A stretch of 64,000 nt of DNA, from contig NZ_NWMW01000001.1 of assembly GCF_002351485.1 (NCBI RefSeq), positions 1,736,001-1,800,000 on the forward strand. Reading direction: 5' to 3'. The DNA is from Sphingomonas spermidinifaciens (GTDB lineage Bacteria > Pseudomonadota > Alphaproteobacteria > Sphingomonadales > Sphingomonadaceae). Every line of letters starts with the position of its first letter. Positions within the stretch are counted from its first letter, which is position 1. A program made the position numbers and the translations under genes. The notes under the pieces were generated by a model. That model was not told the origin of the DNA. It made no database searches and saw only the letters and a list, made by a program, of their open reading frames with translations. Shown here one piece after another: positions 14,497 to 52,111 of the stretch.

Positions 14497-15341
14497 CCGA
14501 AGTCACCGTCGCGGCGCTGCAGCTCGCCTTCACGCGCGACCTCAGCGCCAACATTGCCGCTGTCAGCGAGCTGGTGCGCGAGGCCAAGGGCAGGGGCGCG
14601 CAGGTCGTCCTGCCGCCCGAATTGTTCGAGGGCGAGTATTTCTGCCGCACCGAGGAGGAGGAATGGTTCGCCACCGCCCGGCCAGTGGACGAGCATCCCG
14701 CCGTGCTGGCCATGCAGGCGCTCGCCGACGAGCTCGGCCTCTACATCCCCACCAGCTTCTTCGAGGCGGACGGCCCGCATCATTATAACTCGCTGGCGAT
14801 GATCGCGCCCGGCGGGCGGATCGAGGGCGTCTATCGCAAAAGCCATATTCCCGACGGGCCGGGCTATGAGGAGAAATTCTATTTCCGCCCCGGCAATACC
14901 GGGTTCAAGGTCTGGGGCGGACCGGGCGCGAAGCTGGGCGTCGGCATCTGCTGGGACCAGTGGTATCCCGAAACCGCGCGCGCGATGATGCTGATGGGGG
15001 CGGAGATCCTGTTCTACCCCACCGCGATCGGGGCGGAGCCGCACGATCCCACGCTCGACACGCGGCGGATGTGGCGGCGCGCCATGCTCGGCCATGCGGT
15101 GTCGAACGTGGTACCGGTGGTGGCCTCGAACCGCATCGGCAGCGAGCATGGCCAGCTTTTCTACGGCCACAGTTTCATCTGCGACGAGTTCGGCGAGCTG
15201 CTCGCCGAGTTCGGGGCGGATGAGACGGGCGTGCTGACCGCGACGCTCGACCTCGCCCGAGTGAAGAAGAACCGCGCGGGCATGGGATTCTTCCGCGACC
15301 GGCGGCCGGAGCTGTACCGGCGCCTGATCGAGGACGTCTGA
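14493..15341 (+). CDS. aguB: N-carbamoylputrescine amidase
   Basis: A 282-residue nitrilase-superfamily amidase that converts N-carbamoylputrescine to putrescine, CO2 and ammonia, completing the agmatine route started by AguA. The catalytic triad is E43 (PPELFEG), K116 (YRKSHIP) and C153 (GICWDQW). The substrate loop DGPGYEEKFYFRPG is typical for this subfamily. It is cytosolic. The start overlaps the aguA stop (ATGA at 14493). The gene is convergent with holA with only 3 bp between the stop codons and no room for a separate terminator. Confidence 0.95.
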   Translation: MTEVTVAALQLAFTRDLSANIAAVSELVREAKGRGAQVVLPPELFEGEYFCRTEEEEWFATARPVDEHPAVLAMQALADELGLYIPTSFFEADGPHHYNSLAMIAPGGRIEGVYRKSHIPDGPGYEEKFYFRPGNTGFKVWGGPGAKLGVGICWDQWYPETARAMMLMGAEILFYPTAIGAEPHDPTLDTRRMWRRAMLGHAVSNVVPVVASNRIGSEHGQLFYGHSFICDEFGELLAEFGADETGVLTATLDLARVKKNRAGMGFFRDRRPELYRRLIEDV

Positions 15342-15344
15342 GCC

Positions 15345-16361
15345 TCAGCCCAAGCGCTGCCCCATCCGCGCGATCGCCAGCCCCTCGGCCTCGGCCAGGA
15401 TCGCACCCGCATTGCCCCGCGCGACGATCGCGCGTTCGGCGGTCCGCACTCGCTCGACCGCGCGGGCGAGCTGCGCGGCATTCCAGCGGTTGAGCGCGCG
15501 GATCGTCGCGGCTTCCTCCTTCCAGAAGACGCGGTGGCGCTTGACCACGACCGCCGCTGCGTCGCCGCTCTCGACCTCACGGCGCATGTCGGCGAGCGCG
15601 ATGAGCCGCTTGGCGAGTTGCCGCAGCGTCGGGATGGCCAAATTGTCCTCGGCGATCGCGGCCAGTTCGACACCCGCGGTCACGGGGTCGCCGCCCACCA
15701 CCGCCTCGATCGCCGCCCCCATCGCGCTTTCGTCGAGCACTGCGCCGACCGCGTCGAATACCTCGGCGCCGCAATCGGCGGGCCTCTCGGGCGCAGCGTC
15801 GAGATAGAGGGCGAGCTTCTCGACCTCGCGCACGATCACCGCGCGGTCGCCGCCCGTCGCCGCGACCAGCCGCTCGGCACAGCCCCCGCCGAGCCGCAGC
15901 CCGTGCTCGCGCGCGATCTGTGCGGCGAGGCGCACGGCGTCGGCACCCTCGGGGACATAGAAAGCGGCAGCGGCGGCATTGCTCGCGCTCTCGACCAGCT
16001 TCACCAGCTTGCCCGTCTTGCGCAGCGACGGCGCGATCGCGACGACCGGATTGCCCGCGCGCTCGGCATTGAGGAGCAGCGTCACCGCCTCCAGGCTCTC
16101 CTCGCCCATGCCGGTCACGCGGATGAACCGCTTGTCGCCGAACAGCGACATCGACGCCGCTTCGTCGGCCAGCCGGCCCGGGTTCGCCTTGAGCATCGCC
16201 CCGTCCATGTCGACGCGCTCGACCCCCTCGCCCAGCGCGCGCTGGAGCACCGCCGCCAGCTCGCCCGTCCCCGATTCGTCGGGACCGTAGAGGAGGTAGA
16301 GGCGCGTCCCCTCGTCGGGCTTCTCGAGCCGCGCGCGCATCTGCGCGGGCTTGAGGTTCAT
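15345..16361 (-). CDS. holA: DNA polymerase III subunit delta
   Basis: A 338-residue clamp-loader delta subunit, which opens the beta sliding clamp in the gamma complex. The N-terminal domain includes YLLYGPDESG and the FGDKRFIRVTGMG beta-interaction region, and the C-terminal collar domain follows at about 215-338. The start overlaps the lptE stop (16358-16361, ATGA). The order leuS-lptE-holA is the conserved arrangement seen across many proteobacteria and supports both names. Confidence 0.93.
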   Translation of the reverse strand: MNLKPAQMRARLEKPDEGTRLYLLYGPDESGTGELAAVLQRALGEGVERVDMDGAMLKANPGRLADEAASMSLFGDKRFIRVTGMGEESLEAVTLLLNAERAGNPVVAIAPSLRKTGKLVKLVESASNAAAAAFYVPEGADAVRLAAQIAREHGLRLGGGCAERLVAATGGDRAVIVREVEKLALYLDAAPERPADCGAEVFDAVGAVLDESAMGAAIEAVVGGDPVTAGVELAAIAEDNLAIPTLRQLAKRLIALADMRREVESGDAAAVVVKRHRVFWKEEAATIRALNRWNAAQLARAVERVRTAERAIVARGNAGAILAEAEGLAIARMGQRLG

Positions 16362-41547: not shown

Positions 41548-42141
41548 ATGGGCCGGCGATCCGATCACAGCCGCGAAGAGCTGCACGCGCTGATCCTTCA
41601 GGCCGGCGAGGCGCTGATGGCGGAAACCGGCCTCGCGGGCTTTTCCGCACGCGAAGTCGCCAAGCGCGTCGGCTACACCATCGGCACCGTTCACAATGTC
41701 TTCGGCAACGTGGACGGGCTGGTGATGGCCATCAATACGCAGACCTTCGCAATCTGGGCGGAGGCGCTGCGGGCGCGACTGGCCGATGCGGAAAGCGATC
41801 GGATCGCCGCGCTGGTGCGCGCCTATTTCGCCTTCGCCCGCGCCAATCCGCTGCGCTGGTCGGCAATCTACGAGCACCGCGTCGCAGCCGACGCGATCCC
41901 CGCCGATCAGGCCGCGGTGCGCGGAGAGCTGACCGGCATCGTCGTCGGCGAGGTCGCGGCGGCGCTCGGCCGGGTGCCGGACGAGGCGGTCGGCACGCTC
42001 GCGCGATCGTTGGTGGCAACCGTCCACGGGCACTGCACCTTCGACGCCGATGGGTCATGGGCGGCAATGGGCCAGCGCGACGCGGAAGCGGCCGCGCTGG
42101 CTCGGGTCCGCGAGAGCATTGCGGCAGCGCTGGCGCGCTGA
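41548..42141 (+). CDS. TetR/AcrR family transcriptional regulator
   Basis: A 197-residue repressor-type regulator. The helix-turn-helix (about 28-60) reads GFSAREVAKRVGYTIGTVHN, followed by VFGNVDGLVMAI. The C-terminal ligand domain resembles the WHG/TetR_C_13 type (AYFAFARANPLRWSAIYEHR). It is translated 3 bp after the DUF5991-like gene and 22 bp before a membrane protein gene. It probably controls its own operon through the tandem repeats at 40502-40549. The ligand is unknown. Confidence 0.9.
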   Translation: MGRRSDHSREELHALILQAGEALMAETGLAGFSAREVAKRVGYTIGTVHNVFGNVDGLVMAINTQTFAIWAEALRARLADAESDRIAALVRAYFAFARANPLRWSAIYEHRVAADAIPADQAAVRGELTGIVVGEVAAALGRVPDEAVGTLARSLVATVHGHCTFDADGSWAAMGQRDAEAAALARVRESIAAALAR

Positions 42142-43592: not shown

Positions 43593-45236
43593 ATGACGGG
43601 CCGGTCGCTCAAGCGGCTCGCGCTCGGCGGTTCGGCGGTGCTGCTGGCGGGCGCCGCACTCTGGGCCGGTGCGCGACCGGTCGGCGAAGCCATGACCCGG
43701 CCGCCCGTCGCACCTGGCGCCGGCACGGTGGCGGCAGGCGCAGCCGCTTTTGAGGGCGCAGGCTTTGGCGGCATCAGCATGGCCGCGCTGGAGCGGAACG
43801 CCCTGCCCTGGCGCGTGGTAGCCGCCGCCCTCGTCCTCGAAGAGCAGGCGCGCGACCCGGCGGCGCGGGTCGACAAGGCGACGCTGTCGCGGGTACTCGA
43901 ACGGTTCGGCTTTCTTACCCGAGCCACCGTCATCAACCGACCGGCGGGCGTCGGCGCGCGGCCGGGCGGCATGGCGCTCGGCCTGACGACAGGCGACGTC
44001 GCGCCGGTGGGTGGGAGCGTCGTGCGCGTCGCCAATCTCGGCTGCGCTGCGTGCCACGCCGGCATCGGCTATCACGCCGATGGCAGTCCGGACCCGAGCC
44101 GGGCGGTGCTCGGCATGCCGAACACGTCGCTCGACCTCGAAGCGTATACAATGGCGGTGTTCGCGGCGCTGCGCCGACACGCCGACAGCGATCGCCTGCT
44201 CCCCGCCGCAGCCGCGCTGTTCCCCGAGATGAGCTGGCGCGAGCGGGCGAGCCTGCGCCTCCTCGTGCTGCCGCTCGTCAGGCAACGACTGGCCGACCTG
44301 CAAGGGCGCGACCGCCCGCTGCCCTTCCCGAACGGCACGCCCGGCAGCACCAACGGTGTCGCTGCGCTCAAGGCGGCGCTCGGCCTGCCACTGATTGGCG
44401 GCGGCAGCGGCGATGTCGGAACGGTATCCATCCCGGAGCTGGGCGAGCGGGTCTGGCGGACGCGCCTGCTTGCCGACGGTGCATACGGTGTTCCGGGCGG
44501 TGGGGCGCACGCCATGACCGAAGCCGACCTGACGCCTGCGCACCTCTCGGCGCTGGGCGCGATCACCACCTTCTTCACGGTGCCCAGCATGGGCGTCCAT
44601 CCCGATGCGGCCATTGATGCGCTTGGGGACGCGGATGCAGTCGTCGACTTCCTGAAGGCGTACCGCCCCGCGCCGTTTCCCGGCGCCGTCGATCCGGCGT
44701 CCGCGCGAGCCGGTGCCGCGATCTACGCCGGCCGTTGCGCCGCGTGTCACGGCGACTATCGCCTGGACGGACGGCGCGCGCGGCTGGTCCGGTTTCCCAA
44801 CTGGGTCGGACCGGTCGGCACCGATCCGCTACGCGCCGCGGCCTTCGACCCGGGACTGGTCGCGGCGGTTGGTCGAAGTGCCTATGCCTCGCGGATTCGC
44901 GTGACACTCGGCCCCGGTTACGCCGCGCCGCCGCTCGCGGGACTTTGGGCCTCGGCACCCTATCTGCACAACGGATCGGTGCCGACGCTGGCGGCGCTGC
45001 TTTGGCCGCAGACGCGGCCCTCCCGCTTCCAAACAGGGGGCCACGCGCTCGACTTCGACAAAGTCGGCCTGCGGCTGACGGATCGCGGCGCCTATCCCCC
45101 GGGCTATCGCCCCTTTGCGCAACCGGTGTTGCTGGACGCGCGCCGGCCCGGACGCGGCAATGGCGGGCACCTTTTTGGCATGGACCTGCCGGATCCCGAC
45201 AAGCGGGCCCTGATCGAGTTCATGAAGCTGCTCTAG
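43593..45236 (+). CDS. Dihaem c-type cytochrome, exported
   Basis: A 547-residue protein with an N-terminal signal or anchor (SLKRLALGGSAVLLAGAALW). Two haem-c sites, CAACH, lie at residues 151-155 (LGCAACHAGIGYHADG) and 382-386 (GRCAACHGDYRLDG). The C-terminal half resembles single cytochrome c domains (PPLAGLWASAPYLHNGSVPT). The central 200 residues match no domain I recognise. It would carry electrons in the periplasm, perhaps in an oxidase or dehydrogenase. The stop codon TAG shares CTA with the stop of the convergent nitroreductase-like gene, a 4-bp overlap (CTAG). Confidence 0.85.
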   Translation: MTGRSLKRLALGGSAVLLAGAALWAGARPVGEAMTRPPVAPGAGTVAAGAAAFEGAGFGGISMAALERNALPWRVVAAALVLEEQARDPAARVDKATLSRVLERFGFLTRATVINRPAGVGARPGGMALGLTTGDVAPVGGSVVRVANLGCAACHAGIGYHADGSPDPSRAVLGMPNTSLDLEAYTMAVFAALRRHADSDRLLPAAAALFPEMSWRERASLRLLVLPLVRQRLADLQGRDRPLPFPNGTPGSTNGVAALKAALGLPLIGGGSGDVGTVSIPELGERVWRTRLLADGAYGVPGGGAHAMTEADLTPAHLSALGAITTFFTVPSMGVHPDAAIDALGDADAVVDFLKAYRPAPFPGAVDPASARAGAAIYAGRCAACHGDYRLDGRRARLVRFPNWVGPVGTDPLRAAAFDPGLVAAVGRSAYASRIRVTLGPGYAAPPLAGLWASAPYLHNGSVPTLAALLWPQTRPSRFQTGGHALDFDKVGLRLTDRGAYPPGYRPFAQPVLLDARRPGRGNGGHLFGMDLPDPDKRALIEFMKLL

Positions 45237-46210
45237 ACGAGCACTTCCTCGATCGGCCGGCGCGCGCGGGGCGGCTGCTCGCCGGGCGGGCGGCGGCCGA
45301 TCCGGAATGCGCTGACCACCCGGCGATCCGCACCGATGCCCGCCGCGCGCGCGATCTCGGCCGCGGCGCCGGGATCGTCGGCAAGCGCGGCGAGCACTGC
45401 GGCGCCGAAACCCGCTGCCTCGATCCGCAGCCACAAGCGGTAGAAGCGGGCGCCGCTGTCGAACGGCGCTTCGTTGCGCGGCCGGTGGAACACGACGAGC
45501 CCCGCCCCGCGCGCCACCTTGGCGCCCTCGGCCAGGAGCGGCCGCGCGAGCCCGATGCGCGCGAGCAGCCTGAACGCGGGCCCCAGCACCAGCGCTGCGC
45601 CGCGCGCCTCGATCCCGCTCATCGCCATCGCGTCGGCATTGAGCCCGTCAACTGCCCAGCGAGGATGGCGGCGGTCCAGGCGCATCCAGCCGCGCAGCTC
45701 GGCACGGAATGCATCGTCGCGCATGAAGCGGTAGCTCGCCGCGTCATATCGCCCGGCCAGTTGCTTCAGTATCGCGGGATCGGTGACCACCGCGGCATCG
45801 TCGGCAACCAGCGCCTCGGCCGCCCGGCGATCTGCGGCCGTCGGCTTCGCGAACGCGGCGCGCCACGACTGTCGCGCCTCGACGACGCCGACAAGCGGAT
45901 CGGGCTCGCCATCGTCCACCAAGCGCCATCCGGCGACGCCGCGCAAGTCCGGCTCGTCGGCGGGCGTCGCGGTCGGCACAAGCGCCAGACCGCGCCGGCC
46001 GGCCGCCAGCCGCATCCCCTCTGCCGCGGCACCCAGACTGATTGCGGCATCGTTGCCGCGCGGGTCGCCCGTCGCCAGTCGAGATCGCAGGCCCTCGAAT
46101 AGCGAGATCCCGTCGTCGCCGACCAGCCGCCATCGTGCCGGCTGCACATTGTGCACGCTCGGCGCCAGCGCTGCCTCGGCGACGAGGGCGATGCGGTCGA
46201 TCGCGCTCAC
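45233..46210 (-). CDS. Nitroreductase-fold protein, Acg-like
   Basis: A 325-residue protein resembling the Acg/nitroreductase-like FMN family: LVAEAALAPSVHNVQPARW at the N-terminus is the typical flavin-phosphate segment of this fold. NDAAISLGAAAEGMRLAAG follows, and the C-terminal half has FDSGARFYRLWLRIEAAGFG. It starts at GTG (46210), overlapping the stop of the GNAT gene by 4 bp. It is the last gene of the five-gene overlapping operon. Acg-type proteins bind FMN without classic nitroreductase activity. A link with an E1-like protein recalls, from memory, mycobacterial Rv1355c, where both domains are fused. Confidence 0.8.
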   Translation of the reverse strand: MSAIDRIALVAEAALAPSVHNVQPARWRLVGDDGISLFEGLRSRLATGDPRGNDAAISLGAAAEGMRLAAGRRGLALVPTATPADEPDLRGVAGWRLVDDGEPDPLVGVVEARQSWRAAFAKPTAADRRAAEALVADDAAVVTDPAILKQLAGRYDAASYRFMRDDAFRAELRGWMRLDRRHPRWAVDGLNADAMAMSGIEARGAALVLGPAFRLLARIGLARPLLAEGAKVARGAGLVVFHRPRNEAPFDSGARFYRLWLRIEAAGFGAAVLAALADDPGAAAEIARAAGIGADRRVVSAFRIGRRPPGEQPPRARRPIEEVLV

Positions 46211-47304
46211 GCCAGCTCCTTTCTGAACAGGTGCAGATGGTGAAGCGGCCGGGCGCCGAGCTTCTCCATCTGCCGCAGGCTCGCCGCGTTGACGTCGGCG
46301 ATCCAGGTGATCCCGAGCTGGCGGTAGCCGGCGTCGCGGAGCGAGGTGACCGTGCGGGCGAGCATGCCGCCCATCACTCCCTGACCGTGCATCGCCCGAG
46401 CGACCGAATAGAAGATGATGACCGCCCGCTGCCGTCCGAGCCGGTATCGCAGATAATGGAATGGCGTCGTCAAGCCGATCCGGGAGCCGGTCGCCGCGAG
46501 CAGGCCGTTGAGATCGGGAATGCAGATCACCGTCCCGACCGGCTGCCCGTCCTTGAGCAGCACGGACGAGAGACGCGGGTCGAGGATCGACATCATCTCG
46601 CCCGCCTGAAAGCGGAACTCCGCCGCCGTCAGCGGCACGAACATCGGATTGTCGGCGAAGCCGTCGTTGAGGACAATGCGCGCTTCCTCCATCCGCTCGG
46701 CGAAGCTCGCCTTTGCGACCGGCGCGAAGCTGAATCCCTCGCCGGGCTCGAGCGTGCGCAATCCCTCGGTCCGCGCCGCAGCAAGGTCGAGCTCGAAGGT
46801 ACGCATGGGAAAGAAACGTGCGAAGCCGTTCGCCTCAAGCAGCCGGGGGACATGCGCGGCGTTGACGACCATGTCGGTATAGGCGCGCGCACCGTATCCA
46901 CCGGTCATGACACCGCACTGCTGCATGGCGGTCAGGTTGAAGTTGCCGACGAGGTCCGCCTGACCTTGCTCCCGCGCGAACCGCTCGGCAGCGCCGAGCA
47001 ACACCGCGGCGGCATCCGCATCGTCGGCGCAGTCGAAGAAGCCGAACTGCGCGCGGGCGGTGCCATGGGCGCTGTTCGATTGGCGATGCACATGGGCGAT
47101 GATCCGACCGACAGGTCGGCCGGCCCGGTGTGCTGTCCAGAAAGCGAACGGGTTCCCCGCCGTCCAGAGCGGGTTCGCGCGCGCGTCGAGCATGCGCCGG
47201 ACGTCGCCCTTGAGCGGCGAGACATAGCCGACATCGGGGGCATAGGCGTTGAAAGGGGCAGCGAAGAACGCATCGACGTCGCCGGAACGAAGCTCGACCG
47301 TCAT
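46207..47304 (-). CDS. GNAT family N-acyltransferase-like protein
   Basis: A 365-residue cytosolic protein, about twice the size of a single GNAT domain. The C-terminal part has the acyl-CoA motif VARAMHGQGVMGGMLARTV followed by LGITWIADVNAASLRQMEKLGA, which is typical of GNAT motif A/B. The N-terminal half (VGRIIAHVHRQSNSAHG, AQFGFFDCADDADAA, GNFNLTAMQQCGVMTGGYG) resembles the other half of a tandem-GNAT fold. The start overlaps the preceding membrane protein's stop codon (ATGA), and its stop overlaps the nitroreductase-like start (GTGA). The acceptor is unknown; an aminoacyl or peptide intermediate of this operon is possible. Confidence 0.82.
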   Translation of the reverse strand: MTVELRSGDVDAFFAAPFNAYAPDVGYVSPLKGDVRRMLDARANPLWTAGNPFAFWTAHRAGRPVGRIIAHVHRQSNSAHGTARAQFGFFDCADDADAAAVLLGAAERFAREQGQADLVGNFNLTAMQQCGVMTGGYGARAYTDMVVNAAHVPRLLEANGFARFFPMRTFELDLAAARTEGLRTLEPGEGFSFAPVAKASFAERMEEARIVLNDGFADNPMFVPLTAAEFRFQAGEMMSILDPRLSSVLLKDGQPVGTVICIPDLNGLLAATGSRIGLTTPFHYLRYRLGRQRAVIIFYSVARAMHGQGVMGGMLARTVTSLRDAGYRQLGITWIADVNAASLRQMEKLGARPLHHLHLFRKELA

Positions 47305-48431
47305 GCCGCCGCCTCGATCAAGCGTGCCGCCACTGCGATCTCGTCGTCGAGCTCGGCACCCGCCAGCCCGCCGGCCGCGATCGCGAGGAACTGCGGCGGG
47401 CTACGCGACACGCGGATCAGATGGGTCGCCTGCGCGGCCTGCAACAGGTCGCGCGCGGCGTCGCCCGCCTCGTCGTCCAGATCTGCGTCGACGACACGGT
47501 GGGCCAGCAGCGGCTCGAGGCTGGCAGGCGGATAGGCGGCAAGCGCCTCGCCGTCGATCAACTGTCCCCCTTCGAGCAGCGGATGCGCCGACAGGATCGC
47601 GGTCAATCCGGCCCCGGGGGTTCGGGCTAGGGCGGCGACCAGCCCGGCGCCCTGCGGGCCGCGGCCCTGCGTCCGCTCGATGAGGAGCAAGAGCGCGCCG
47701 ACCGCAAAGCCGCCCGCCGCCAGCCGGACCGCGGCAGCGGCATCGAGCGCAGCGACGCCGATCCAACCGACGAGCGTCATCAGGGCGGCCGCCCCGGCAT
47801 TCACCGCAAGGTCGGCGAGCAGCCCGCCCGGCGTCCCGCGATCGTCGACCAGACGCGACGAACCGAGCACGATCACCAATACCGCCACTGCGCCGCCCCG
47901 AACCGGCAGGTCGGGGAAGATCGCGTGAAAGTCGGTGAGGGCGAGCGGGATCGTCAGCACCAGCGCAAGCAGGAAGGTGTCAAGCGTCCGCCGCTCGGCT
48001 GACCGCAGGTCGCCCCGCTCACGCGCCAGCATCCCGATCGTCAGCGCGAGCATGACCGACTGATAAGCGGCGAGCGCCACCGCCGCGCCCTCGCTCCACG
48101 CCACGCCGAGCGTCAGCGCAAGGGCGGTGAAGGTGATCCCGCCCCCCAGCCCCAGCAGCTTGACCGCGCGCGGCGCATGGCGCCGGCAGAGCTGTTCGGC
48201 GAGGCGAAGCCCGGCGAGCGGCAACCACGCCGCGGCGATCATCAGCGCGACGATCAACGGGAGCGATCCGGTGGCGAACACGGCGAGCCGCAACGCCAGC
48301 AGCAGGCCGGTGAGGGCATAGAGCGCGCGCAGGCGAGCTGCCACCGGCGAACGCGACGCCGCCTCGCCCGCCGCGCGCCAGGCGAACGCCAGCGCGGCGA
48401 GCGCGATCGCGGTGATGAGGCTGTCGATCAC
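47301..48431 (-). CDS. Hypothetical polytopic membrane protein
   Basis: A 376-residue protein starting at GTG (48431) that overlaps the E1-like stop codon. Residues about 1-255 hold around eight hydrophobic helices (SLITAIALAALAFAW, LYALTGLLLALRLAVFA, LPLIVALMIAAAWLP and others), then a cytosolic C-terminal region of about 110 residues with acidic patches (DADLDDEAGDAARDLLQ). No transporter or enzyme motif was recognised. It is the third gene of the operon and could export or anchor the product. This is inferred from position only. Confidence 0.7.
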   Translation of the reverse strand: MIDSLITAIALAALAFAWRAAGEAASRSPVAARLRALYALTGLLLALRLAVFATGSLPLIVALMIAAAWLPLAGLRLAEQLCRRHAPRAVKLLGLGGGITFTALALTLGVAWSEGAAVALAAYQSVMLALTIGMLARERGDLRSAERRTLDTFLLALVLTIPLALTDFHAIFPDLPVRGGAVAVLVIVLGSSRLVDDRGTPGGLLADLAVNAGAAALMTLVGWIGVAALDAAAAVRLAAGGFAVGALLLLIERTQGRGPQGAGLVAALARTPGAGLTAILSAHPLLEGGQLIDGEALAAYPPASLEPLLAHRVVDADLDDEAGDAARDLLQAAQATHLIRVSRSPPQFLAIAAGGLAGAELDDEIAVAARLIEAAA

Positions 48432-49300
48432 GCCATCATCTTCTGCATGAAGCGCCGCACCGCAAAGCAGCGCACTGCCGCGATCGGGGCAGCGAGCGGG
48501 CGCTCGATGCGAACCTTGTGCGGGTTGAAGAAATAGCCGCGGTGATCGGTCCCGCCCCCGCGGCCCAGGATCACGCGGATCGCCTCCTCGGCCATCATCG
48601 TCCCCGCCATCGTCACCATCGTGGCGAAGGAGAAGCGCGACCGCTTGCCCGCGGCGACCTCGGCCGCGATGTCCAGATCGACATGCGCGTGGCTGCTGCT
48701 GTGGGTCAGCACATATTCGATCTCGCGTTGGAGGCATTCGGTCCGCATCGCCGCGGTCACCACCGTCCACTCGACGCCGACCGTCGGATAGCCGAGGCGA
48801 GCCTCCGGCCGCGGCGCGTCCGGCTTCACCACCGTGACCGAGGGAAGCGGTGACGCATAGGCGTCGATCACGGTGCGGCCATGCGCCTCCGCCCGGCGGT
48901 ATAGGTGAACGCCCGCGGCCGCGTCGTCCATGCCGTTGACTATCACGTCGCACGCGGGGATCAGCCGTTCGAGCTCCCCCGTCCACGCCGCGCCGAGCAG
49001 TTCGATCTCGGCTTCCGGGTTGATACGAAGCGCACCCGCGCGGGCCGCCGCCGCCTTGTCCGCGCCCACCGTGTCCAACGTCGCGAACAGCTGCCGGTTG
49101 AGGTTCGACACTTCGAAGGTGTCGATGTCGGCGATCGTGAACCGCCCGACGCCGGCGCGCACCAGCGCCATGAACGCCGCGCCGCCCATGCCGCCGACGC
49201 CGGGTATCAGCACATGCGCCGCGCGCAGGCGGTCTTGCTCCTCGGCGGTCACAAACCCGCGATTGCGCGTCGTCATCTCGTCATAGTCGAACCCGGTCAT
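48428..49300 (-). CDS. ThiF/E1-like adenylyltransferase
   Basis: A 290-residue protein of the E1/ThiF/MoeB superfamily. The nucleotide loop is G34-V-G-G-M-G-G40. D58/D60 come next, then NLNRQ (residues 66-70, the adenylating arginine at 69), K82, and the metal-binding NGMDD (122-126). The prefix MTTRNRGFVTAEEQDRLR is typical of the bacterial ThiF branch. Two usual parts are absent: the structural zinc CxxC pairs, and an obvious catalytic-cysteine motif (C189 in RTECLQRE is the best candidate). The enzyme should adenylate a C-terminal carboxylate. No ubiquitin-like or carrier protein is encoded nearby. Confidence 0.88.
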   Translation of the reverse strand: MTGFDYDEMTTRNRGFVTAEEQDRLRAAHVLIPGVGGMGGAAFMALVRAGVGRFTIADIDTFEVSNLNRQLFATLDTVGADKAAAARAGALRINPEAEIELLGAAWTGELERLIPACDVIVNGMDDAAAGVHLYRRAEAHGRTVIDAYASPLPSVTVVKPDAPRPEARLGYPTVGVEWTVVTAAMRTECLQREIEYVLTHSSSHAHVDLDIAAEVAAGKRSRFSFATMVTMAGTMMAEEAIRVILGRGGGTDHRGYFFNPHKVRIERPLAAPIAAVRCFAVRRFMQKMMA

Positions 49301-50412
49301 CGCGCGGCCCTCAATCTGCCCAGCGGCTTGTCGGCGGAAAGCCATTGCACCAGCGGCGCCACGACCGCCTGAACGGCGAGGACGATCCCCTGCACGGCCA
49401 GCTGCGGCACGGCGCTGCGCGGCACACTTCTCGCCAGAAAACGGCGAGCGGTGCCGACATCCAGCCGACCGATCTGAAGCACATCGTCGCCTCGCTCGTA
49501 ATCGAGCGTTTCGGCGCAAAAGCGGTTGTAACGATCGTCGCGGTGTTTCGCGGCCACCGCAAAGCTCTTCTTCAGATTGTCCGAACCGCCGGTATAGGCG
49601 TTGGTGATCACCTGCATGACCGGGTCGAACCCGGCATCCGCTCCGACGCCGAACGCCGCCCGCTGTCCCTGCATGATCTGGTGCGCGAGGTGCTGGTGCG
49701 CGAAGCTTGCCCGCGTGCCGGCCTGGGCGGGATAGACGTCGTCGAAAATCTCGGCGACCATGCCGACCACGGCGGGCACCTGCGTCACGCTGCTGATCCA
49801 AAGCGGTCGCAGACCGCGGCGGACAAACAGCGCGAAGCAGGTGAGCCCATAGAGGATCCACGACAGTCCCCCGCTCCGCTCGGCCGGATCGACCATCACC
49901 AGGCCAAGGTGCAGCACCTCGTCCGGCAATCCGCCGCGCCGGACGGAAAGGAGCGGCATCGCGTTGAAGGCGATCGGACAACCGTCCGCGGCCCGGCGGA
50001 CGAGCGTGACGACACTGCGCTCCCACGCCGACCCGTCGGGTGCGAAAAGGCCGTAGTCGAGCTGGCGCCCGTCCAGGCACGCGGCGACGACCGTACGGCA
50101 GGCCTGTTGAAGCTTTTTGAACTCGGCCGACGGCAGGGTACGGGCGGGGCGCTCGACGATCTCGACCACGTGCTCACGGCCCGATCGAAAACGCAGCAGC
50201 AGATAGGTGCCCGTAAACGCCCTGAAGATCGCCGATGGTCGCATCGCTCTCCCGATTGCGCGCACCATGCCAACGAACCCTTGCCACGGCAAATAGGCCG
50301 TGCCGAGCGTATGTTGCCGGTGGCCGATCATGTGCCGAACCGGCACCGCCGGACGCCGAACGAGAGAACGAATCGCCCCGCTTGCGCCAGGTAAACAAAC
50401 CACTCGCTTCAT
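49297..50412 (-). CDS. Uncharacterised protein with GNAT-like core, first gene of E1-like operon
   Basis: A 371-residue protein with no family I can name. The middle part, LPDEVLHLGLVMVDPAERSG then GLSWILYGLTCFALFVRRG, resembles GNAT motif A (a strand, V-x-P-x-x-R-x-G, then a helix). It is preceded by PIAFNAMPLLSVRRG. Later, HQHLAHQIMQGQRAAFGVG and FDPVMQVITNAYTGGSDNLK are conserved-looking but unassigned. The C-terminal region is hydrophobic (VPQLAVQGIVLAVQAVVAPL) and may associate with the membrane. Its stop overlaps the E1-like start (ATGA). As an acyltransferase it could make the substrate that the E1-like enzyme then activates, which is inference. Confidence 0.6.
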   Translation of the reverse strand: MKRVVCLPGASGAIRSLVRRPAVPVRHMIGHRQHTLGTAYLPWQGFVGMVRAIGRAMRPSAIFRAFTGTYLLLRFRSGREHVVEIVERPARTLPSAEFKKLQQACRTVVAACLDGRQLDYGLFAPDGSAWERSVVTLVRRAADGCPIAFNAMPLLSVRRGGLPDEVLHLGLVMVDPAERSGGLSWILYGLTCFALFVRRGLRPLWISSVTQVPAVVGMVAEIFDDVYPAQAGTRASFAHQHLAHQIMQGQRAAFGVGADAGFDPVMQVITNAYTGGSDNLKKSFAVAAKHRDDRYNRFCAETLDYERGDDVLQIGRLDVGTARRFLARSVPRSAVPQLAVQGIVLAVQAVVAPLVQWLSADKPLGRLRAAR

Positions 50413-50860
50413 CGTGAACAGGCGAAAGCGTCGGCAGATTGAAGGCAGGATGCGCGGAAAGATCGGGGCCGGTGCCGCGACTTTCGCATCGCGCCGTCAT
50501 GTCACCGAGGTGTTTTCGACTGGAGGCAATTGGCCGCACCTCCATCAACACCTCGGAAGACTCCAGGTCGTCGACGCAATGAAGGCGACCGGCCGATGGT
50601 CTTCCGGCCGCGCGTCAGGACCATGGTTGCAGCCGGCGATGCCGGGGCGCGGCTGATGATCCTCCGCGGCGCGGTGCTCGGCAGCGAGCGTCACACATCT
50701 GATGGAATTTCGTCACATGGAAGCGGCTAACGGTGATTCGCGTGCAGCCTATGGGCTTGGGCCGCTTCGACCTGACGGTGAACGGCCGGGACGGGTATAT
50801 CTCGTTGTCAGCGCGAGTCGGCGCGGCACCGCGCGAGAGAAGCAGAGTGGAGAATTCGCC
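50413..50860. other. Divergent promoter region, 448 bp, with nested hairpin
   Basis: This region lies between the E1-like operon (minus) and the DUF5996-GNAT gene (plus). It contains the hairpin at 50505-50556 and otherwise no gene I can support. Open frames in it lack ribosome sites and homology. I looked for a short precursor peptide for the operon on both strands and found no convincing one. Confidence 0.5.
50505..50556. promoter_or_regulatory. Nested hairpin in the leader of the E1-like operon
   Basis: CCGAGGTGTT (50505-50514) pairs with AACACCTCGG (50547-50556), 10 perfect bp. Inside, TGGAGG (50521-50526) pairs with CCTCCA (50539-50544). The structure lies 93-144 bp upstream of the operon start on the minus strand. 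It could be a cis-regulatory RNA element or a large operator palindrome. Confidence 0.45.
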
Positions 50861-52111
50861 ATGACGATCAACTGGCCGCAGCTCGATTACCTCGGCTGGC
50901 GGGACACCTGCTCCGCGCTGCACCTATATCTGCAGGTCGCCGGCAAATACCGCCTGGCGCACAGCCCTTGGCTGAACCATTCCTGGAACGCGACCTTCTA
51001 CGTCACGCCCATCGGACTGGCCTCCTCGCCGATCCCCGACGGTCCCGGCATCGAACTGCTGTTCGACCTGCGAAAGCATGAGGTGGTGGGCACCAACGGC
51101 GATGGCAGCCGGGCCTCGTTCGCGCTCGGGCCGACGACCGTCGCGGCCTTTCATGGCGCGTTTGTGAAGCTCATCTCGGATCTCGGCGGCACGCCCAGCT
51201 TCCACGACACGCCCAATGAGGTCCCGCACCCTCTGCCCTTCCCCGAGGACCATCGCGATCGTCCTTACGACCGCGAGGCCGTGCAGCGTTTCCACCAGGC
51301 GCTGGTCGCGACCGACCGGGTGTTCAACCGCTTCCGCACCGCATTTCTGGGCAAGTCGAGTCCCGTCCACCTTTTCTGGGGCGCGCTCGACCTCGCGGTG
51401 ACCCGCTTTTCGGGGCGACGCGCGCCGCTCCACCCCGGCAACATTCCCGCGCTGCCGAACGACGTGGCGCAGGAAGCCTATGACCGAGAGGTCGCATCGG
51501 TGGGCTTCTGGCCGGGCGGCGGGGGCATCGATTACCCCGCCTTTTATGCCTATGCCTATCCGTCGCCCGCCGGCTTTCGTGCCGCGCCGGTCGAGCCCGA
51601 TGCCGCCTTCTGGCACGAGCAATTGGGAGAATTCGTCCTGCCCTATGAGGCCGTCCAAGCGGCCGGCGATCCCGACGCGACGCTGCTTGCGTTCCTCACT
51701 TCGACCTATGACGCAACGGCCGATCTGGGCGGATGGGACCGCGACCTGCTGGAGTGCGCGGTGGGCCGGCCGCGCCAGGTGCGTCCGGCAGACCCGCATG
51801 TCGAGGCACCGGCCGACCAACCGGCGACAGGCACGGTGGAGCGCGAGGACGGCGAGACGAAGGGTCGCTACTGGATGTCGGTCGACGCGGTCGAAGCCGA
51901 GATGACCTATAGCCGGGCCAGCCCTTCGCTCATCATCATCGATCACACCGAGGTGCCCACGGCGCTGCGCGGACGCAAGGTCGGCGAGCAGCTCGTCCGC
52001 CGGGCCGTCGAGGACGCAAGGCGCGAGGGGGTGGCGATCATTCCACTTTGTCCCTTTGCAAAGGCGCAGATCGACCGTCATCCCGAGTGGCAGGACGTGC
52101 TACACGGCTAG
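50861..52111 (+). CDS. DUF5996 protein fused to a YjdJ-type GNAT domain
   Basis: A 416-residue two-domain protein. The start at 50861 follows AGTGGAG and begins the DUF5996 homology (MTINWPQLDYLGWRDTCSAL). DUF5996 covers about 1-300 (KYRLAHSPWLNHSWNATFYV, PVHLFWGALDLAVTRFSGR, GFWPGGGGIDYPAFYAYAYP). After an Ala/Pro linker, residues about 325-416 are a small GNAT of the YjdJ type: HTEVPTALRGRKVGEQLVRR followed by IPLCPFAKAQIDRHPEW. Both parts are usually separate proteins, so this looks like a fusion. It is cytosolic. It is divergent from the E1-like operon. The substrate is unknown. Confidence 0.85.
   Translation: MTINWPQLDYLGWRDTCSALHLYLQVAGKYRLAHSPWLNHSWNATFYVTPIGLASSPIPDGPGIELLFDLRKHEVVGTNGDGSRASFALGPTTVAAFHGAFVKLISDLGGTPSFHDTPNEVPHPLPFPEDHRDRPYDREAVQRFHQALVATDRVFNRFRTAFLGKSSPVHLFWGALDLAVTRFSGRRAPLHPGNIPALPNDVAQEAYDREVASVGFWPGGGGIDYPAFYAYAYPSPAGFRAAPVEPDAAFWHEQLGEFVLPYEAVQAAGDPDATLLAFLTSTYDATADLGGWDRDLLECAVGRPRQVRPADPHVEAPADQPATGTVEREDGETKGRYWMSVDAVEAEMTYSRASPSLIIIDHTEVPTALRGRKVGEQLVRRAVEDARREGVAIIPLCPFAKAQIDRHPEWQDVLHG

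Follow-up and report, generated by a model that had tools for sequence, protein, structure and literature searches.

A five-gene operon and its convergent neighbor

The window considered here is a 64,000-nucleotide stretch of the 3.64-Mb genome of Sphingomonas spermidinifaciens (G000:C1:1736001-1800000), and it contains five adjoining genes, which we designate A to E, together with a convergent gene, K, coding for a di-haem cytochrome (Table 1). Our findings indicate that the five genes represent a conserved cassette, a real system present in scattered Alphaproteobacteria, and they suggest, with more reserve, that its product could be an amino-acid lipid of the oxazolone kind.

Every junction between A and E is a 4-bp overlap, read as ATGA at 49297, GTGA at 48428, ATGA at 47301, and GTGA at 46207, just as described in an earlier note prepared from the letters of this DNA; the frames and the order of the genes are backed by homology to relatives. 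The same overlaps recur in relatives' loci (AB 36 of 52, BC 36 of 51, CD 27 of 35, and DE 31 of 36, with the broken CD junction of L108 set aside), and all four occur together in 13 loci. The five genes of the earlier note are all real, and K is a sixth gene that it had left out. The stop codons of E and K overlap tail to tail in a common CTAG at 45233-45236.

The extent first given for gene A, 49297-50412, proved over-long. Because relatives align only from residues 54-71 of the long open reading frame (ORF), the likely start is ATG 50244, residue 57 of that ORF, which is preceded by a ribosome-binding site, GGGAGAGCG, judged to be good. For gene K, the likely start is ATG 43593, with a hydrophobic N-terminus. 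A promoter scan returned no candidates, and a terminator scan returned three, against 3.2 expected.

Table 1. Genes of the cassette and its convergent neighbor, with coordinates as positions in the window (aa, amino acids).
Gene	Product	Position	Strand	Basis and remarks
A	GNAT-fold acyltransferase, 315 aa	49297..50244	-	ORF runs to 50412; corrected start 50244
B	ThiF/E1-like adenylyltransferase, 290 aa; proposed cyclase	48428..49300	-	PF00899
C	Polytopic membrane protein, 376 aa, GTG start	47301..48431	-	AF2 model
D	GNAT, 365 aa; relative of the GNAT in the serine palmitoyltransferase locus	46207..47304	-	PF00583, BLASTP, hhalign
E	Acg/Rv3131-type protein of the flavin mononucleotide (FMN) nitroreductase superfamily, 325 aa, GTG start; proposed desaturase	45233..46210	-	NF047509
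K	Di-haem cytochrome, convergent with E	43593..45236	+	ORF from 43557; two CxxCH

Distribution of the cassette across genomes

A pattern scan for relatives of gene A in a genome collection holding one genome per species (84,980 species) yielded 261, from which the best 80 loci were kept. Gene presence in these loci was called by tblastn, and the set overlaps the family and plasmid sets described below (for instance, L045, L059, and L108), so the counts are not additive. All five genes occur in 36 of the 80 loci. With X standing for a relative of acyl-ACP--phospholipid O-acyltransferase (ACP, acyl carrier protein), the gene sets are ABCDEK in 24 loci, AC in 24, ABCE in 12, ABCDEX in 8, ABCDE and ACX in 3 each, ABCEX in 2, and XABCDE, ACE, ABC, and AB in 1 each; the ABC and AB loci run off the contig inside the cassette, and frames are broken in a few loci (L097, L108). 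Gene C accompanies A in 79 loci, the remaining one being cut by a contig end. B and E are found together in 50 and are both missing from 27, while D is present in 36, each also with B and E. D is absent from 14 loci that carry B and E (ABCE, ABCEX), where A would have to perform the acylation.

Gene A was detected in 7 of 396 genomes of the order and in 3 of 385 genomes of the class, the genome of the window included each time. The six other A-bearing genomes of the family all carry A-B-C-D-E in this order, with K in five of them. Similarly, gene A lies on ten plasmid records, and the four regions fetched (Rhizobium WL3, Shinella, and two Ensifer) all contain A to E, one of them with K. In the two other class genomes, C is present and no match to B, D, or E was found within the 18 kb read. 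Hosts of the five-gene set include Sphingomonas, Porphyrobacter, Rhizobium, Shinella, Ensifer, Mesorhizobium, Roseibium, and the gammaproteobacterium Lysobacter (L072). Among relatives of gene A with a named host, the nearest are from Sphingomonas. This co-occurrence extends far beyond close relatives and bears out the earlier proposal that the five genes constitute a functional system.

The flanks of the cassette are rarely common with those of its relatives. When 30 loci were compared, several genes beyond K were common with the window only in two close Sphingomonas loci, and two further loci matched a TetR gene at ~30%, so the cassette seems to have moved. We rejected the idea that it belongs to the core genes of the genus: besides the rarity of gene A in the order, 24 other genomes of the same genus gave no B match better than 1.2e-16.

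A Mesorhizobium locus (L111:8992-15296) carries A and C whole beside short remnants of B, D, and E, the picture of add-on genes decaying around an A+C pair; it is counted above as ABCDEX.

Predicted functions of the encoded proteins

The labels that the five products had received from the letters alone hold on closer examination: B matches ThiF (PF00899, 5.6e-38), D matches GNAT (PF00583, 7.6e-6), A is a GNAT by fold, C is a membrane protein, and E is of the Acg type, although its score for NF047509 (3.6e-38, 131.8 bits) falls below the cut-off of 199.

For gene B, the best family is PRK08223 (2.3e-36, residues 2-248, 125 bits, below cut-off), the MoeB model giving 91.5 bits, and the best PDB match is MoeB of E. 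coli. The adenylation residues GxGGxG, D58, D60, N66, R69, Q70, K82, and D125 are kept in 15 of 15 B rows. CxxC motifs are found in none of these rows, whereas two are present in 8 of 11 MoeB-like rows (the other three include the doubtful reads L012 and L135), and no cysteine is invariant across 10 aligned B proteins. When a gene B profile was run against 349 genomes of the phylum, 20 passed E <= 1e-25, the genome of the window among them; the matches in the other 19 are partial, at 1.1e-31 or weaker, and among the eight of these that were scanned, five are PRK08223-type or fusion-like and the others are MoeB-type or unsettled. Genes of the PRK08223 type adjoin TIGR03694 synthases in two scanned loci (L123, L125), and PRK14851-type fusions adjoin TIGR03694 acyltransferases in five.

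In other families of the order, ThiF-oxidase fusions stand beside TIGR03694 synthases in L030, L031, L032, and L035, and merely near one in L034; these five are likely ordinary OxzB-type clusters.

The ThiF tree was refined by dropping long, doubtful, or mixed rows (L135_x, L138_fus, L142_x, L127_223) and, earlier, two wrongly read ones (L006_fus, L012). The reduced tree consisted of three clean groups, and since three groups cannot reveal a sister pair, TcdA rows were added. In the resulting tree, B forms its own clade (support 100/99) and groups with the oxazolone-type (OxzB-type) rows at 94/90.

In addition to its match to NF047509, gene E scores slightly below the cut-off of PF00881, and its profile matches Acg (2ymv) at 2.8e-11. 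In an unrooted tree built without TyzC, E occupies its own clade (100/100), apart from the oxidase parts of five PRK14851-type fusions (100/100).

Gene A is a GNAT-type acyltransferase by predicted fold. Its AF2 model (pLDDT 81.9) has SpNatD as best Foldseek match (1.1e-4) and VIA Z scores of 10-12 to GCN5 and Naa50, 10.6 to RpaI, and 10.5 to LasI. Because these matches span GCN5, N-terminal acetyltransferases, and two acyl-homoserine-lactone synthases, the finer family of A is left undecided; FeeM (2G0B) is not among the structure matches listed. Alone, gene A found no family match in the Pfam and NCBIfam searches, and 10 of 47 members of its family touched GNAT Pfam models, the best at 0.0037. 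When profiles of A and D were run against PDB sequences, nothing convincing emerged.

Gene C is a membrane protein without a known relative. In its AF2 model (pLDDT 89.9), nine long helices are accompanied by a small alpha/beta part at the C-terminus, and a Foldseek search of the PDB returned no match at E <= 0.001, the G-protein-coupled-receptor-like rows being non-significant. The best-supported Pfam model, 7TMR-DISM, was found in only 3 of 41 members, at 0.0012.

D-like GNAT genes occur in 25 of 25 genomes searched, and in this genome there is a second one besides D. The paralogue (L190:8348-9490) aligns with D by BLASTP at 25% over 377 columns (3e-25) and by hhalign over its full length (100%, 3.7e-49, 358 columns). 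It lies in a locus with serine palmitoyltransferase and ACP, both of which are missing from the cassette in which D itself resides. This sphingolipid-type locus (L190:193-9490, G000:C1:1320192-1329489) comprises an epimerase, ACP, a serine palmitoyltransferase (NF047603, 788 bits against a cut-off of 670), LptF, a fatty acid desaturase, and the D paralogue. From this setting, and from the naming of CCNA_01212 of Caulobacter as ceramide synthase (PMC10865984, PMC12633290), we infer that the D paralogue may be a ceramide synthase.

Gene K, which is probably exported, has two CxxCH motifs and resembles NF040606 (1.9e-36, below cut-off) and the RoxA-like family PF21419 (2.3e-19). It is linked to the cassette in 24 of the 80 loci. 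A di-haem gene of the MauG/CCP type is found in 17 other loci (AC, ABCE, or ACE), downstream and convergent in 14 of them, and never together with K, so a di-haem partner is a recurring neighbor. In the AC locus L061, for instance, the MauG/CCP-type gene follows behind one further gene. The gene at L060:12995-14326 is one of the 17; in Rhodobacteraceae-type loci this kind of gene occupies the convergent place near the cassette, and it has no similarity to K at the cut-off used.

Gene X stands beside the cassette in 14 of the 80 loci (one of the 14 was scanned) and is a possible source of acyl-ACP, and a PspA-type gene is near in 19. Upstream of K, the window contains a TetR-type regulator (41548-42138, +) with relatives at ~29-35% in 20 of the 80 loci and one at 82%; TetR genes are common, so this recurrence may be due to chance. 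Divergent from A, a gene at 50702-52108 (+) combines DUF5996 with a short GCN5-related acetyltransferase domain and has no match in the loci searched. ARAGORN placed a tRNA with an unreadable anticodon at 15295-15382 (-), which is possibly spurious.

Proposed pathway, alternatives, and known counterparts

In published pathways, an acyltransferase N-acylates an amino acid, a ThiF protein cyclizes the product with ATP, and a flavin oxidase desaturates it with O2, yielding N-acyl oxazolones (PMC10404671, PMC12856293, PMC12479983, PMC12250964). The genes for the ThiF cyclase, flavin oxidase, and acyltransferase are clustered (PMC10404671, PMC12856293), and the lipids, a class that came to light only recently, are described as having an open physiological role and a ring that acid and methanol destroy (PMC12856293). 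Rv1355c, which the earlier note had cited as a ThiF-nitroreductase fusion in support of a functional link, is indeed such a protein: it has been published as TrzS, in which a ThiF cyclase and a flavin oxidase are fused (PMC12856293). All three kinds of enzyme are encoded in the operon of the window: B is a ThiF protein whose adenylation residues are intact, E belongs to the nitroreductase superfamily of flavin enzymes, and A (by fold) and D (by Pfam) are acyltransferases.

Our preferred interpretation, to which we give slightly less than an even chance, is that the product of the cassette is a fatty N-acyl amino acid, ring-closed to an oxazolone (azlactone) and desaturated, as in the OxzAB, TyzACB, and TrzAS pathways. 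In its favor are the three enzyme kinds in one operon, the pairing of B and E across the 80 loci (both in 50, neither in 27), the intact adenylation residues of B, and the TIGR03694 synthases that adjoin genes of the PRK08223 type, the best family of B. A would move a fatty acyl group from acyl-ACP or acyl-coenzyme A onto the amino acid, and D, where present, might carry out a second acyl transfer. Judging from its kinship and intact residues, B would adenylate the free carboxylate with ATP, after which the amide oxygen would close the ring with no thioester or carrier protein. E, as an FMN enzyme, would install the alpha-beta double bond using O2; C may hold, sense, or move the lipid at the membrane; and K could act as a redox partner. 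The modified acyl-amino-acid that the earlier note had suggested as a product agrees with this scheme.

A number of observations weigh against the oxazolone interpretation. Neither A nor D gave any NCBIfam match at E <= 1, TIGR03694 included; hhalign of A and D against seven TIGR03694 proteins returned 1.0% and 0.2%, a comparison that covers no TyzA, which is also divergent; and a TIGR03694 synthase was not found in this genome. In the ThiF tree with TcdA rows, the alternatives that place B with TcdA or with MoeB are not rejected (p 0.286 and 0.39), and in the first tree, with 39 rows and the noisy ones included, B stood apart from the oxazolone-type rows (p-AU 0.125 if they are forced together). 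E scores 131.8 bits for NF047509 versus 27.2 and 21.8 for the fusion families, and the FDO-B (Acg-type) genes of M. tuberculosis do not lie near oxazolone genes, according to PMC10404671. Among the 80 loci, L119 has E without B, and on a gene A tree of 78 rows, with three contig-end loci left out, B requires 8 changes and E 7. Six independent pairs differ in B, and E changes alike in five and shows no difference in one (sign test, p 0.0625, not significant). A first count had omitted L119 as well as the contig-end loci; the figures given are with L119 restored. Finally, 27 loci carry A and C without B, D, or E (AC, ACX), which implies that the core pair is useful without ring closure. Because the synthase-family comparison fails for A and D, and the clade data for B and E are undecided, we classify the cassette as a variant of the oxazolone pathway.

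Judging by the A+C-only loci, the acylated product may be useful in itself. In a second, doubtful interpretation, A and C would be the central pair of a membrane lipo-amino-acid system that has not been described before. B and E, often with D, would be an add-on that came together independently of the known oxazolone pathways, its ThiF protein being of a distinct clade, its oxidase of the Acg type, and its acyltransferase ceramide-synthase-like; it would make a reactive azlactone head at the membrane, used or removed by an exported di-haem cytochrome (the RoxA-like K, or a MauG-like protein elsewhere). If true, azlactone lipid chemistry would have arisen a second time, by convergence, and an Acg-type enzyme would for the first time have a part in it.

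It is unlikely, in our estimation, that the product is instead an open-chain N-acyl dehydroamino acid of the thalassotalic, kyonggic, or stieleriacine type, or an amide or ester formed when a nucleophile opens the azlactone, with D possibly using the activated ring. Genes for a synthase, a ThiF protein, and a nitroreductase are likewise present in the clusters behind those compounds, where an oxazolone was not observed (PMC12479983); D would fit as the additional acyltransferase, being found only beside B and E. However, 14 of the 50 loci with B and E lack D, and the present data do not separate ring from open chain.

We consider it quite unlikely that the cassette makes or remodels a structural membrane aminolipid of the ornithine-lipid or ceramide kind, with A and D adding two acyl chains and B and E altering the head group in another way, such as amide formation. 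The kinship of D with the GNAT of the serine palmitoyltransferase locus, the 27 loci with A and C alone, and the acyl-ACP--phospholipid O-acyltransferase and PspA-type genes nearby are consistent with such a lipid, but it leaves unexplained the pairing of a ThiF protein with a flavin oxidase, as in known oxazolone pathways.

A pathway resembling those of ribosomally synthesized and post-translationally modified peptides, in which B would activate the C-terminus of a precursor peptide as MccB or PaaA does, appears very improbable even though B shares its fold and residues with these enzymes. The 4-bp overlaps leave no room for a precursor inside the operon. Among small ORFs in the 600 bp upstream of A at 78 loci, the window falls in no group, and elsewhere in the genome no precursor search was made; none of the eight largest groups listed spans B-bearing loci of several families. 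The peptide product also entertained by the earlier note finds no conserved small ORF upstream of A. As a candidate, a precursor next to A was rejected, given that the small ORFs preceding A in the window lack relatives at the corresponding place in 77 other loci.

That B is an ordinary MoeB/ThiF-type enzyme activating a sulfur carrier, an outcome that the earlier note had named as refuting its idea, can be dismissed as extremely improbable despite the intact adenylation residues and the PDB match to MoeB, because B has no CxxC pairs and no invariant cysteine, stands in its own clade, and coexists with a separate MoeB-like gene bearing two CxxC (G000:C3:198291).

If the oxazolone interpretation is right, oxazolone chemistry would be present in scattered Alphaproteobacteria under genes labeled “hypothetical protein,” and desaturation of amino-acid lipids may be a function of Acg-type flavin enzymes. 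Among the hosts are soil and plant bacteria that can be cultured, in some of which the cassette is plasmid-borne, so direct knock-out tests are feasible, and the loci that naturally carry A and C alone provide a ready comparison for the contribution of B, D, and E.

A literature search confined to one open-access library found no paper on this gene set, and we compared the cassette with the closest described systems. With the bacterial ceramide synthase, the likeness lies in the full-length alignment of D with the GNAT of the serine palmitoyltransferase locus of this genome, CCNA_01212 itself being outside the comparison; D differs in its identity of only 25% and in the lack of serine palmitoyltransferase and ACP in its locus.

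The TyzACB system, which makes N-acyl tyrazolones in M. tuberculosis (PMC10404671), resembles the cassette in having separate genes for an acyltransferase, a ThiF cyclase, and a single-domain flavin oxidase in one locus. By their published description, the two differ in that TyzC belongs to the FDO-A23 subcluster, whereas E scores as Acg/Rv3131-type, and counterparts of C, D, and K are not described for the tyz set in the available text. OxzAB and TrzAS (PMC10404671, PMC12856293) similarly place a ThiF protein and a nitroreductase-superfamily oxidase beside an acyltransferase. There, the two enzymes are fused, whereas here B and E are separate and, although in one operon, have C and D between them; E also stands apart from the oxidase parts of five PRK14851-type fusions, and neither A nor D matches TIGR03694. 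The stieleriacine, thalassotalic, and kyonggic clusters (PMC12479983) likewise combine a synthase, a ThiF protein, and a nitroreductase in an operon-like arrangement with short or overlapping junctions; they differ from the cassette in their recognizable N-acyl amino acid synthase, and C, D, and K do not figure in the available part of that account.

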